Below are positions 24,097 to 29,091 of a stretch of 49,010 nucleotides of DNA, piece by piece. This stretch comes from Anaerolineae bacterium (GTDB lineage: Bacteria; Chloroflexota; Anaerolineae; 4572-78; J111): positions 1 to 49,010 of the forward strand of contig JAFGDY010000240.1 in the NCBI GenBank assembly GCA_016931895.1, read 5' to 3'. Both the position numbers and the translations under genes were made by a program. Below the pieces are notes generated by a model. That model was not told where the DNA came from and did no database searches. It worked only from the letters and a program-made list of their open reading frames with translations. Position 1 is the stretch's first letter, and every line of letters begins with the position of its first letter.

Positions 24097-24513
24097 TCAC
24101 TGAAAACTGTATCGGTCCAGATAAATTTTTTGAAACATCAATTTTTTGGTTAAAAATCTTTCAACTTTTTCCATCAAAACAGAGGGTCGGAAAGGTTTGG
24201 TGATATATTCATCGGCGCCGGCAGCCAGGCCCATTTGAATGTCCTCTCTCTGCCCTCTGGCCGAAAGCAGGATAATGATAATACCGGCCGTAACCGGGTC
24301 GGCTTTAATCCGGCGGCAGACCTCTAGCCCATCTATTTTGCTGTTGGGCATCATAATATCCAGCAAGATAATGTCGGGCTGTTCGGTACGCGCTATTTGC
24401 ATAGCCTGCTGACCATCATCAGCAAATAAGAGGTTGTGGTCGTCCAATTCAAGGGTGATTTTTAGTAATTCTTGCACTTGGGGCTGGTCGTCTACGATCA
24501 AGATTTTTTTCAT
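24097..24513 (-). CDS. Single-domain response regulator (CheY-like)
   Basis: The 138-residue protein is a bare receiver domain. Acidic pocket Asp8/Asp9, phospho-acceptor Asp52 (ILLDIMMP), Ser84 and Lys106 (ITKPF) are all present, so it should be phosphorylated. The last 20 residues (MFQKIYLDRYSFQ) are extra to the domain. No output domain exists, so it must act through protein contacts, as CheY or a phosphorelay shuttle. No histidine kinase lies in the window. AAGGAG lies upstream of ATG 24513. It follows the DUF5317 gene by 24 bp. Confidence 0.93.
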   Translation of the reverse strand: MKKILIVDDQPQVQELLKITLELDDHNLLFADDGQQAMQIARTEQPDIILLDIMMPNSKIDGLEVCRRIKADPVTAGIIIILLSARGQREDIQMGLAAGADEYITKPFRPSVLMEKVERFLTKKLMFQKIYLDRYSFQ

Positions 24514-24537: not shown

Positions 24538-25128
24538 TTAGGATACTGCGCCTTTTAACTTCACTATTTCCTCTCCTCTTTTTTTCTTGAAGTTGATTTG
24601 AAAAATGAATTGAGCGGCGCCCAAAACCAAACACAGATCACCCCCGCTCACCGCATTACGTCGCCAGGGTAAAGTGACCGGAATAATATCGGACAAAAGC
24701 CGTAAGTTGGTTTGATTATAGGGCAGGATAATGTTTTTACTGCTTGGTGGTTTGGAATATAGCTCAACCGGGCGGCCAGGATGAACAAACTGATAGATTT
24801 CTGGCGTAACCGGCATCCAACCCCCATTGGCCACCATCACCGCAGTGTTAAGAATAATTCCCAACACAAACAATTTAATTCCCGGCACATGCCGGTTCAA
24901 GAGCAAAAGAAATACCAGGGCAAGCTGCGCCCCAATCAAAAGCGCCGCCTGCCAAACAGCTTGCCCTGATGTATAGATAATGAGTGTGGCTTGCAATATG
25001 AATAAAGCAATAACCCCTATGATCACGCTCCACCCCCCGCGATAAGGCAGACGGGCGATAAGGCTTAAATCGCGTTTAAGGAGTAGAGCCAGGATAATCA
25101 GAAAAACTATGGCATCAGTTAAAATCAT
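24538..25128 (-). CDS. DUF5317 family membrane protein
   Basis: A 196-residue protein with four or five membrane helices: residues 5-20, 35-55, 60-78, 85-105, and a late helix near 165-180. The phrase VMVANGGWMPVTPE and the final LPWRRNAVSGGDLCLVLGAAQFI segment are recognisable DUF5317 features. ATG 25128 is preferred over an upstream TTG because the family starts directly with the first membrane helix. A basic tail (KKKRGEE) lies in the cytoplasm. Function is unknown. It probably shares a transcript with the response regulator. Confidence 0.82.
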   Translation of the reverse strand: MILTDAIVFLIILALLLKRDLSLIARLPYRGGWSVIIGVIALFILQATLIIYTSGQAVWQAALLIGAQLALVFLLLLNRHVPGIKLFVLGIILNTAVMVANGGWMPVTPEIYQFVHPGRPVELYSKPPSSKNIILPYNQTNLRLLSDIIPVTLPWRRNAVSGGDLCLVLGAAQFIFQINFKKKRGEEIVKLKGAVS

Positions 25129-25196
25129 AAAATTGATTTCCAACACCCCAACGAGAATCGCGTAGAGTGGCTCGCATCGAGATCAAGCTTCCAAGA

Positions 25197-25307: not shown

Positions 25308-25610
25308 TTAACAGTCAGGAGATGCGTAAACAAAAGCTGAAATGGGATAGGATGAGGCAACACCTTGCTGACTGCTATAGGGTCTGTCGTCATGAAGATC
25401 GCTGACCAACAGCCTGGCTTTAATCTGGCTGGCATAATCTTTTAGATTAGCGGCGCGAATACCTGTCAAGATTGCGGCATCCTCTGGCGGTATATCCAAC
25501 TCTGCCAAAACCTCCTCCTCGCCGGATAACAACTTGGTACGGAATACAATGTTGGCATTGGCTTTAATTAATATATCTGAGATGGCTGGACGATAGGGTA
25601 TTTTGGCCAT
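25308..25610 (-). CDS. NHLP/Franean1-like leader protein, possible RiPP precursor
   Basis: The 100-residue protein has a helical N-terminal part (about residues 9-68) with pattern DILIKANANIVFRTKLL, then EVLAELDIPPEDAAILTGI and AANLKDYASQIKARLL. This spacing of FR-x2-LL, a short acidic link, LxEL-x-IPPEDAA and a final A-x-LK-x-A helix is like the leader region of Franean1_4349/Os1348-type precursors (from memory). The last 32 residues, rich in Ser, Tyr, Pro and Asp and ending in Cys, would be the core. ATG 25610 has GAGGAAA about 11 bases upstream; an earlier ATG 25649 overlaps the stop of the small peptide gene as ATGA. No maturation enzyme is next to it. It could equally be a small regulator. 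Confidence 0.6.
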   Translation of the reverse strand: MAKIPYRPAISDILIKANANIVFRTKLLSGEEEVLAELDIPPEDAAILTGIRAANLKDYASQIKARLLVSDLHDDRPYSSQQGVASSYPISAFVYASPDC

Positions 25611-25645
25611 TGTTATGCTTTCCTCGCGAGCTGTTGAGATTTGTC

Positions 25646-25774
25646 TCATCCCCCATATTCATGGGGCGCACCACCTGCTAAAACAGCCAGTACTACAGTA
25701 ACCAGAATGAACGCCACCTGCACCTTTGGATTGTTAGCCAACTGACTCACCGCAAGTTTAAATTTTGGTAACAC
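25646..25774 (-). CDS. Small membrane peptide (42 aa, GTG start)
   Basis: GTG 25774 is preceded by GAGGAGG six bases upstream and opens a frame of 42 residues ending at TGA 25646. The peptide has a basic N-terminus (LPKFKLAVSQLANNPKVQ), one hydrophobic helix (VAFILVTVVLAVLA) and a short glycine-rich tail (GGAPHEYGG). It could be a membrane-anchored or exported peptide. It lies 128 bp downstream of the STAND/BTAD regulator stop and its stop overlaps an in-frame ATG of the next gene, so co-translation is probable. No known family is recognised; coding potential rests on the ribosome site, context and a coherent sequence. Confidence 0.6.
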   Translation of the reverse strand: MLPKFKLAVSQLANNPKVQVAFILVTVVLAVLAGGAPHEYGG

Positions 25775-25902
25775 TGGAATCCTCCTCTTCCAAATATCAT
25801 TGATCTTTTATTTTTCAGCCGGTGAAATGCTCTCGCTGAGAGTAAACCACCCGACCATATCACCAGTGTACCAAATAGGCTCTGATGGTTTTCGGAGGAA
25901 TA

Positions 25903-28900
25903 TTATGTAAAATTTATTTTTGCAGTTAACAGTTGTTTGTACAGTTGTTGGGTTTCTGGCGCAGGCGGTTCCCCCAGTTCCTCTTTAAAAAATTTGTTTA
26001 TCTCGCGATAATAGTCTTTTAAATCATCATACAAGCCCAACTGAGCGTAGGCCCTCAAGGCGTTACAGTGTAAATCTTCCCGAAAATTATCCCGGGCCAG
26101 ACCTTTATTAATCACGGTCAGAGCATGTCTGGGATCACGAGCTTCGAGTAATTGCTCGCTGGTAAGGTTGATCATTTGCAAAAACTGAATTTCATACTTT
26201 GTACGGTACGTTGCGCCCCACTCTTCCAGCTCAAAGCTGGCCAGGAACTCACCTCGATACAGATCTATTAATTCCAACTGTAAGGCTAATTTCTCTTTAG
26301 GCGGGGCAATACTCGCTTCTTGAAAAAGGGACTCAAAGGCCAGAGCGTCACACCATTCCAGATAATCGCTATTTATCCGGTAAATATCGTTTTGGACGGT
26401 GATGTAATCTGACCTTCCAAAAATACTACTTCTCAAACGCTTCAGGACGTGGTGAAAACTATCCGAAGCTTTCTCCGGTTCTATATCCGGCCAGAGCGCC
26501 ACGCTAATGTCATTCCAGCGACAACCTTCTCCCCGGCCTTCCAAAATCAAATAGAGCAAAAATTCGGGCATTTTGTGAACACTGCCGCGCATACTGAGAA
26601 AGTGCTTATATTCACCAGCCACAATTAACGAAGCCGGGCCAAAAGCAAATACTTGCAGGCTTGGCCGTGAGGTTTGCAGGGTTGATTGCTTTTCTTCCAG
26701 CAAGGCTCTAATACTGTCGCGCACTCCGGGCGAGGTATCAGCGTGGTGCCGGAAATGCAATAATAACTGTTGAGTTTCCCCTACCGTCGGCCCCAACCCC
26801 ACCCGCAATTGATCCATGGTCAGCGCCAGGCCAATGGCTTTTTGCAACTGCTCAAAAGCGGCTTTAGCCTTACAATCGAGTAACAGGCTATAACCCCACC
26901 AAAGCCTGACCCTGGCTTGTTCCAGGATGTCACTTTGGGCAAAAGAAGTCAGGGCTTCTGCAAATAAACTATAACTATCTCGATATCTGGCCCGACGAAC
27001 GTAGATTTTGGCCTGAAGCGTACAGGCCAATCCTTTTTCAAAATTTAAACCGTTTTCCGCAGCGTGATGTTGCGCACTAATAGAGAGGGACAGGGCTTGA
27101 TCAAGCTGCTGTTGTTGAAAAAGACATTCGCCTTGTTTGACTACATTATAAATCTCAAGTGATTTCGCCCCTACTTGCCGGGCCAGTTCAGTTGATTTGG
27201 TGAAAGCCTCATCCGATAGTTCATATTTCTGACAGGCCAGATAAACATCGCCGATACTGGCCTGGGCATACGCCGCCCGGCTTATGGCCCCAATCCGCAA
27301 GGCAATCTCTATACTTTCATTAAATCGCTCAAGCGCCTCATCATAATGGCCAAGCATTTGTAGAGACACACCCAAACTATTTAAAGAGCGAGCCAGATCA
27401 TTGCCGTTTCCTAAAGTTTCCCAAATCTGAATAGCCTGCCTGAAGTGGTTAATGGCACCATCTACATGTCCCTGCCGTTCTAAAGAAATGCCTATGTCAT
27501 GATGACATATCCCAATGTTATAGGTATCGCCAATACGCTCAAACAAGGCTAACGCCTGGTACAAGTCTGATATCGACTCCGGGACCTTGCCCGAAACCCC
27601 ATAGGCAATGCCTCGATATCTGGTAGCCCAGGCAATTACCCGTTTTTCCGCATCCAGCGCGTCCAATTGCGCTAACCCTTTGGAAACTAAAGCCAAACTT
27701 TCTTCAGCTTGGCCCATCATCCTCAAACTTACCGACTGCCACACTTCTGCCTCCGCGGCGCCAATCAAATCATCTTGCCGAGAAAATTGTTGAGCCGCTT
27801 GCTTAAAAAGCGTTTGCGCCGCTTCTGGCTTACTCAAATCATTGGCCAGTACCCGGCCTTGCAGCAACAGCAGCCGGGGACGCTGGTTTAGCTCCTGTTT
27901 GGGAATCTGGGCCAGCCAGTTGTGCAGAGTCAAAGCTCGACCCGTATCGTAAAAGAATCCCCCTCGATTTTCTAGCAGGGTTACAGTTTCATCCCAAGCT
28001 TGCACCGACAGGTAGAGAGCTGCCGCCTCTTCAAAACGAGAACGGGCGGTTAAAAGGTGGCCCGCTTTTACCGAAATCTGACCATAAAGTTGTTCATCCT
28101 CGGCCAACTTGGTTTGCAGGAATTCGGCAAAAAGATCGTGATACCGAAACCCCACGCCTACCTGGGTAATAAATAAGTCTCTGCGAATAAGCTGCTCCAG
28201 GTAAGTATGAGCGTCGGTTATTTCTAATAATTCATTGCATAACTCCGCAGTCATCTCAGGTAAAATAGCCGTACGCAACATAAAACGTTGCAGTTCTGGC
28301 GGCTGTTTGTCAAAAACTTCTGTGGCCAGGTAATCGTAAATCACTTCCCGGTCATCGCCCAAACGCTGCCCTAACCGACCAAGTAACTCATCGGCATGCA
28401 TGAGATGGCCGGTCAGCAAAATTTGAGCAATGTTTCCATCGGTGGCCTGGGCAATTTCCGCGGCTGTGGCCAAATCAATTTGACGGCCAAATCGTTTGCG
28501 CATCACCCGCTGTAATTCTGCCGGGGTAAAGCGCAACTCTTCTTCAGAAAGGCCGGTGGCCTGTTCTGCTATGAGCAGATCAATGATCTGGCCTGTTTCC
28601 AGGGCCATATCCCCCCGGGCGGCCACGATCATGGTGCTGGTGGAGGGCAACTGCTCCAAGAGTCTATTAAGGGCCAGGGTCATCCCGGCGCTCACGGCTT
28701 TGTGATAATCGTCAATAATGATCAGGTGCGGGCCAACGTTGGCCAACAGGTCGGCCAGATGGCGAATGCTAACCTGGGTGTCACCCTGTTGCACTACCTT
28801 GAGCAATCTGTCCGGTTCAATTTCGTGGAAACGATCGGTGATGCTATAAGCGAGGAGTGTTAAAAAAGAGGTGGGGTCACGATCCGCCGGCTCCAGCGAG

Positions 28901-29091
28901 CACCAGCACACCGGCAGGTCCGTGGTTTGGGCAAAATCTGCCAGCAGAATAGATTTGCCGTAACCGCCGGGCGCGTAAACCGTGATCAGGCGATAGTGCG
29001 CCTCGATAAATCCGGCCAACGTATCTAACAGGCGCGCCCGGCGATGAATTAAATTAAGGGCGGGGAGGCGAATTCGATCTTCTAAGGCCAT
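25903..29091 (-). CDS. STAND ATPase-TPR regulator with BTAD (SARP/MalT-type) output
   Basis: The 1062-residue protein has a STAND-type ATPase at the N-terminus (Walker A APGGYGKS at 40-47, Walker B LIIIDDY near 124-130), about a dozen TPR-like helical repeats in residues 340-760 (SLNSLGVSLQMLGHYDEALE, AYAQASIGDVYLACQKYELS), and a C-terminal OmpR-like winged helix plus BTAD (WNDISVALWPDIEPEKASDS, LELIDLYRGEFLASF, NALRAYAQLGLYDDLKDYYR). Such regulators bind a small inducer through the TPR part and activate transcription when ATP-bound. The small peptide and leader-like genes lie directly downstream on the same strand, so they are its likely targets or partners. No Shine-Dalgarno precedes ATG 29091. 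Confidence 0.92.
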   Translation of the reverse strand: MALEDRIRLPALNLIHRRARLLDTLAGFIEAHYRLITVYAPGGYGKSILLADFAQTTDLPVCWCSLEPADRDPTSFLTLLAYSITDRFHEIEPDRLLKVVQQGDTQVSIRHLADLLANVGPHLIIIDDYHKAVSAGMTLALNRLLEQLPSTSTMIVAARGDMALETGQIIDLLIAEQATGLSEEELRFTPAELQRVMRKRFGRQIDLATAAEIAQATDGNIAQILLTGHLMHADELLGRLGQRLGDDREVIYDYLATEVFDKQPPELQRFMLRTAILPEMTAELCNELLEITDAHTYLEQLIRRDLFITQVGVGFRYHDLFAEFLQTKLAEDEQLYGQISVKAGHLLTARSRFEEAAALYLSVQAWDETVTLLENRGGFFYDTGRALTLHNWLAQIPKQELNQRPRLLLLQGRVLANDLSKPEAAQTLFKQAAQQFSRQDDLIGAAEAEVWQSVSLRMMGQAEESLALVSKGLAQLDALDAEKRVIAWATRYRGIAYGVSGKVPESISDLYQALALFERIGDTYNIGICHHDIGISLERQGHVDGAINHFRQAIQIWETLGNGNDLARSLNSLGVSLQMLGHYDEALERFNESIEIALRIGAISRAAYAQASIGDVYLACQKYELSDEAFTKSTELARQVGAKSLEIYNVVKQGECLFQQQQLDQALSLSISAQHHAAENGLNFEKGLACTLQAKIYVRRARYRDSYSLFAEALTSFAQSDILEQARVRLWWGYSLLLDCKAKAAFEQLQKAIGLALTMDQLRVGLGPTVGETQQLLLHFRHHADTSPGVRDSIRALLEEKQSTLQTSRPSLQVFAFGPASLIVAGEYKHFLSMRGSVHKMPEFLLYLILEGRGEGCRWNDISVALWPDIEPEKASDSFHHVLKRLRSSIFGRSDYITVQNDIYRINSDYLEWCDALAFESLFQEASIAPPKEKLALQLELIDLYRGEFLASFELEEWGATYRTKYEIQFLQMINLTSEQLLEARDPRHALTVINKGLARDNFREDLHCNALRAYAQLGLYDDLKDYYREINKFFKEELGEPPAPETQQLYKQLLTAKINFT

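Follow-up and report, generated by a model that had tools for sequence, protein, structure and literature searches.

What does a very large transcriptional regulator do beside a membrane peptide of only 42 amino acids (aa)? The question is raised by a 49,010-nucleotide stretch of DNA from an Anaerolineae bacterium (Chloroflexota; GenBank assembly GCA_016931895.1), referred to here as the window, which is the complete contig JAFGDY010000240.1 (C240) of a 6.06-Mb assembly in 320 contigs. A first-pass annotation had described three consecutive minus-strand genes encoding a 1062-aa STAND/TPR/BTAD regulator, a 42-aa one-helix peptide and a 100-aa protein with an N-terminus resembling an NHLP leader, and all three are present in that order and at those lengths. 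Comparison with relatives in public records, which are metagenome-assembled genomes of Anaerolineae/Chloroflexota, revealed that this three-gene unit is conserved and also incomplete, as the next gene, which had been overlooked, encodes a DUF5317 membrane protein and is the most constant neighbor of the peptide. It is near certain that the regulator, the peptide, the NHLP-clan protein and DUF5317 form a conserved four-gene unit, and judging from its sequences the cassette looks like a previously undescribed bacterial peptide-signaling system.

A single-sequence search covering 298 genomes of the class found homologs of the peptide in 18, and wherever the contig permitted, the peptide gene lies directly downstream of a homologous BTAD regulator gene. 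Avoiding the peptide as a starting point, a second survey was centered on DUF5317 and took in every DUF5317 gene in 199 genomes of the class (69 places). A peptide with a Gly-Ala-Pro motif (GAP peptide) is encoded directly upstream of DUF5317 in 44 of the 69, together with the regulator in 40 and with the NHLP-clan protein in 39; the latter precedes DUF5317 in the window lineage and follows it in others. The first-pass annotation had regarded small frames that are absent or broken in relatives, or a regulator always found without them, as grounds for abandoning the link, and this comparison left the link standing, with homologous peptides flanked by a BTAD regulator and DUF5317 in dozens of genomes, far more than chance would give.

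The regulator (REG, 25903..29091, minus strand) combines an AAA/STAND ATPase and TPRs with a C-terminal winged helix/BTAD part. Pfam matches comprise BTAD at residues 914-1055 (E=3e-15, 57 bits), TPR_12 (E=1e-22), TPR_2, TPR_1 and AAA_22, and the winged helix, which has no separate Pfam match, was seen by reading the sequence ahead of residue 914. Orthologs occur in six genome contigs with 54-65% identity. The ortholog at L024:1264-4436 is divided between two open frames of 441 and 602 aa, through either a frameshift or an assembly error. A tree of BTAD C-termini separates nearly all peptide-linked regulators from the remaining BTAD regulators in the window genome, and the exceptions that have no peptide link include two whose contig ends directly after the gene. 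One contig (L022) carries two regulators with an own peptide behind each; the second regulator clusters with that of L132 in the tree, and the corresponding peptide tails match (ASTGCC and ASSGCC).

The peptide (PEP, MLPKFKLAVSQLANNPKVQVAFILVTVVLAVLAGGAPHEYGG; 25646..25774, minus strand) is translated from a GTG start behind the Shine-Dalgarno sequence GGAAGAGGAGG, in agreement with the strong ribosome site annotated earlier, and ribosome sites are also found at homologous peptide genes. It matches no Pfam or NCBIfam model. Over 13 related peptide pairs, which are not fully independent, the pooled proportion of synonymous differences (pS) is 0.54, versus 0.15 for nonsynonymous differences (pN); the peptides are real protein-coding genes under codon-level purifying selection, which answers, for the peptide, the question of frame conservation raised by the first-pass annotation. 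Most relatives are about 30-50 aa long, and 81 distinct peptides share a common layout consisting of a basic N-terminus, a hydrophobic helix, V/A-L-[AGS], G-A-P, three variable residues and [GS]-G. The G, A and P are each present in at least 75 of the 81, and the three residues that follow are the most variable part of the motif, with entropies of 2.9-3.7 bits. Relative to the probable cut, position -3 is V, A or I in 76/81 and position -1 is A, G or S in 78/81, preferences that fit signal peptidase I. On this 81-peptide profile, the predicted exported tail in the window is GGAPHEYGG (residues 34-42; 25649..25675, minus strand), after a signal-peptidase-like V-L-A site. Two or more cysteines are found in 9 of the 81 tails, and tandem peptide copies, some with slightly different tails, occur in L127, L128, L138, L053 and L228.

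Regarding the control of the peptide gene, a conserved activator-type promoter lies between the regulator and the peptide. In the window it reads CGAAAACCATCAGAG, 9 bp and the -10 box TACACT (25865..25894, minus strand), an arrangement that occurs once in the window (1 versus 0.10 expected). Within the window lineage, a CTGARARNTGTMAGAG-like element exactly 9 bp from TAnnnT is present in 9 of 11 loci including the window; of the remaining two, L023 has a variant outside the strict pattern and L027 lacks the element. In many lineages, the promoter contains a direct repeat with an 11-12 bp period, as exemplified by TTTTGAAGCCTG, TTTTGTAAGCAC and GTTTCGTGAGT, each occurring twice. Repeated 9-mers with at least 8 of 9 bases matching were found at 42 of 76 loci, compared with 5.6% of 3,716 segments drawn at random from these loci, and perfect repeats at 30 of 76, compared with 1.3%; loci within a family are related, and about sixteen families contribute to these counts. 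TAnnnT boxes are concentrated 7-11 bp downstream of the repeats, whereas shuffles yield about one per position. In published SARP operators, direct repeats are spaced by 11 bp and the 3′ repeat precedes the -10 box by 8 bp (PMC4393881). As the operator anatomy in relatives from many families fits this rule, the adjacent BTAD regulator likely controls the peptide gene, which would amount to autoregulation. The first-pass annotation had offered, as an alternative, a signaling module whose regulator controls a peptide from one of the small genes; this fits best, and the conserved promoter supports the control.

The same operator may reach beyond the cassette in one Chloroflexota family (f29). Its own operator, allowing up to three mismatches, lies at the peptide promoter in 8/8 genomes, the reversed pattern being found in none, and five further operator loci are each exactly 9 bp from a TAnnnT box. 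Two of these loci lie at the starts of giant secreted RHS-repeat proteins (L253:377-12580, 4067 aa, and L254:3397-13545, 3382 aa), which are 52% identical across 1,572 aligned columns and are preceded by operator copies identical or nearly identical to that of the peptide promoter. A third lies at the start of a protein of 804 aa whose C-terminus is kinase-like. The operator of family f43 was matched in only 2 of 5 genomes, again at the peptide promoter, and a regulon search of the window genome gave no site above the control level except the peptide promoter.

DUF5317 (24538..25128, minus strand; PF17248, E=1e-26, 94 bits) probably starts at the ATG at 25128, although the listed open reading frame (ORF) begins at 25146. 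N-G-G-x-M-P and S-x-G-D are invariant in 22 sequences (the window and 21 relatives), and the positive-inside rule would place the conserved loop outside and the C-terminus inside. A DUF5317 profile matched no solved structure, no copy was found in viral contigs, and DUF5317 was named in no paper of the open literature searched. DUF5317 is also paired with other partners. In 10 of the 69 places, DUF5317 is paired with an HD-GYP gene that has a second tiny peptide (MKW...helix...W) encoded upstream, and a genome search with a model of this peptide added three just past the locus edges (13 in total). These MKW-helix-A(x)A...W peptides of about 30 aa (L117, L119, L125, L126, L131, L143 and L145, among others) mostly lie 24-95 nt, in one case 228 nt, upstream of HD-GYP (MASE9)-DUF5317 pairs. 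Neither the GAP nor the MKW model had any other match at E<0.02 among the 6,964 ORFs of the 448 kb of DUF5317 loci. Most of the 18 strongest MKW matches (E up to 2.1e-5) fall in known DUF5317 places, and the rest precede an ORF of HD-GYP size. The MKW model also matches, weakly, some GAP peptides from regulator cassettes, and the two peptide types therefore look homologous. The DUF5317 genes of the HD-GYP cassettes at L143:3538-4136 and L145:3890-4207 (G137 and G155) are in short broken frames. Searches of the open literature for MASE9 with HD-GYP and for TM0504 returned nothing relevant.

Outside Chloroflexota, the loci studied come from three plasmid records. In Euzebya (Actinomycetota), DUF5317 is fused to EAL, and GAP-like peptides are found near DUF5317 in Euzebya (L112, ending in VILATGAPQKWG) and, with HD-GYP, in Natranaerobius (L114, Bacillota; MRPMNKVVLILVTLLGVVLAGGASFTWGGGG), with a weaker candidate in Subdoligranulum (L113). 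Thermotoga maritima and Thermus composti also carry DUF5317. The wiring of the peptide/DUF5317 pair to HD-GYP or EAL in sister cassettes implies that the output module is exchangeable. Neither the cassettes of HD-GYP, DUF5317 and MKW peptide nor the pairing of DUF5317 and comparable peptides outside Chloroflexota had entered the earlier interpretation.

The NHLP-clan (Os1348-like) protein (25308..25610, minus strand, 100 aa) consists of a conserved helical domain (residues 8-72) and a window-specific tail (73-100), as delineated by profiles, relatives and a structural model. An ATG overlapping the peptide stop (25649) does exist, as annotated earlier, but relatives begin near the internal ATG at 25610. 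The leader likeness noted in the first-pass annotation is real at the level of the family, one member of which (L040) scores 53.2 bits against NF038399 (cut-off 40), but the window copy itself falls under the cut-off (E=0.09). The structure prediction gives a five-helix domain, with a predicted local distance difference test score (pLDDT) near 80 for the greater part of residues 11-70; a fold search of this model against the PDB returned nothing significant, and a search of the open literature for Os1348 returned nothing relevant.

Several observations concern the surroundings of these genes. A single-domain response regulator (24097..24513, minus strand; Pfam Response_reg) follows DUF5317 in the window and is linked in the closest relatives only, adjoining DUF5317 in L019, L020, L027 and L034. 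In L023 and L025, DUF5317 is only 96 aa long and the NHLP protein was not detected; the regulator and peptide are intact. In other Chloroflexota (L212, L213 and L219), MFS_3 transporters carry DUF5317 as an N-terminal fusion, and an HD-GYP-MFS_3 fusion stands beside DUF5317 in L229. In L214 and L231, an FtsH-type AAA/M41 protease gene, which may encode a processing enzyme, adjoins DUF5317.

On balance, and with modest confidence, the cassette is taken to be a self-activating exported-peptide signaling system that is read through DUF5317, the regulator or both. According to the operator anatomy, the BTAD regulator would bind the SARP-type operator ahead of the peptide gene and, once bound, would activate the peptide, the NHLP protein and DUF5317. 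The peptide would insert into the membrane with its basic end inside and be cleaved behind [VA]-L-[AGS], either by signal peptidase or by a dedicated protease, freeing a short tail with the pattern (G/A/S)GAPxxxGG. DUF5317 may recognize this tail, for which its conserved loop should face outside, and either the state of DUF5317 or a re-imported peptide acting via the TPRs may switch the regulator. A wider proposal, held more tentatively and at somewhat less than even confidence, is that GAP- and W-tailed peptides and DUF5317 constitute an unrecognized signaling superfamily in at least three phyla (Chloroflexota, Bacillota and Actinomycetota), in which DUF5317 would be the receptor or processor and the exchangeable outputs would include BTAD/STAND activators, the c-di-GMP enzymes HD-GYP and EAL, histidine kinases and MFS transporters, with one Chloroflexota family switching on giant secreted RHS-repeat proteins.

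Some findings weigh against this main reading. The GAP motif is near the membrane, and the tail could stay anchored. For some DUF5317 copies, mostly at contig edges, no peptide was detected, and a small histidine kinase occupies the DUF5317 position in two genomes (G006 and G075; L032 and L038), implying that DUF5317 is not strictly required. An AlphaFold model of DUF5317 built with four sequences was poor (pLDDT 51.6), and a repeat scan of the window promoter gave no significant direct repeat, the element and its 9-bp spacing being present. In a rival explanation, the peptide is a resident small membrane subunit whose helix and GAP tail dock on DUF5317, modulating either DUF5317 itself or the regulator with no secretion, comparable to the small membrane modulators of sensor kinases. 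The near-invariant GAP at the membrane border and the very short tails suit a protein-protein contact, as do the strict pairing with a membrane protein and the fusion of DUF5317 to a cytoplasmic EAL output. However, nearly all peptides have the signal-peptidase-like positions, variability within the motif is highest in the three residues that follow GAP, and tandem copies, some with slightly different tails, are more typical of signals than of subunits; a resident subunit is considered the less likely reading, if worth keeping in view.

Two further explanations are much less probable. The NHLP-like protein was initially proposed to carry the leader of a ribosomally synthesized and post-translationally modified peptide (RiPP), so that it might be a precursor or a stand-alone leader, with the peptide or its product being a modified natural product under the regulator. 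Like the NHLP-clan precursors (Os1348, NF038399), the family has a homologous leader-like domain, several members belonging to the clan and one scoring above the curated cut-off; BTAD regulators often govern natural-product genes (PMC10972967), and some tails contain two or more cysteines. Nevertheless, the NHLP proteins of relatives (71-75 aa) stop right after that domain and have no core peptide, the window copy scores below the cut-off, and no recurrent maturation enzyme was found in the loci examined, consistent with the earlier remark that no modifying enzyme is adjacent, as none belongs to the cassette. A RiPP function is thus not supported, and this explanation appears improbable. The operon might instead be a circuit that monitors membrane stress or protein quality, with the peptide serving as a sacrificial sensor that a membrane protease such as FtsH degrades and DUF5317 reporting its state. 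A small helix-plus-tail protein is degradable, and M41 protease genes do adjoin some DUF5317 genes, but this adjacency is confined to a few loci without the regulator cassette, and such a circuit predicts neither variable tails nor operator sites linked to exoproteins, making it the most improbable of the explanations weighed.

Among known systems, the exported-peptide reading is closest in manner to RRNPP quorum sensing and Agr. In the RRNPP family of Bacillota (Rgg, Rap, NprR, PlcR and PrgX), as here, a TPR regulator adjoins a small gene whose product is a hydrophobic propeptide, probably exported by Sec and ending in a short, variable tail. The adjacency, the TPRs and the propeptide length (10-100 aa, here 42 aa) agree, whereas the regulator, a 1062-aa STAND ATPase with a C-terminal winged helix/BTAD part, lies far outside the 250-500 aa of RRNPP receptors (PMC10075063), and the cassette contains additional conserved DUF5317 and NHLP proteins and extends outside Bacillota. 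Agr systems (AgrD, the membrane protease AgrB and AgrC/A) likewise combine a tiny membrane-leader peptide, a dedicated membrane protein (about 200 aa) encoded next to it and an output regulator, but in most cassettes the regulator is STAND/BTAD or HD-GYP rather than AgrC/A. Membership of Agr was considered and rejected, as DUF5317 matches PF17248 and no other family, gives no AgrB match and has no invariant Cys or His across the 22 sequences. No AgrD match was obtained for the window peptide (Pfam and NCBIfam) or for two relatives and the MKW type (NCBIfam). The regulator shares BTAD, winged helix, STAND ATPase and TPRs with the SARP, SARP-LAL, AfsR and MalT proteins, and relatives from many families share the direct-repeat operator, its repeats spaced by one helical turn and placed just ahead of the -10 box. 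In contrast to the N-terminal DNA-binding domain described for SARPs (PMC10972967), its DNA-binding part is C-terminal, and it is partnered by a small membrane peptide together with DUF5317, the predicted target being the peptide operon itself.

No description of this cassette or of peptide signaling in Chloroflexota was found in the open literature searched. The present analysis predicts peptide communication in these abundant, mostly uncultured bacteria and offers a testable role for DUF5317 (PF17248), a family of unknown function. Because genome sequences reveal the predicted peptides as well as the operator and the regulon, synthetic peptides are directly testable. The link to HD-GYP and EAL would, in addition, tie peptide signals to c-di-GMP.

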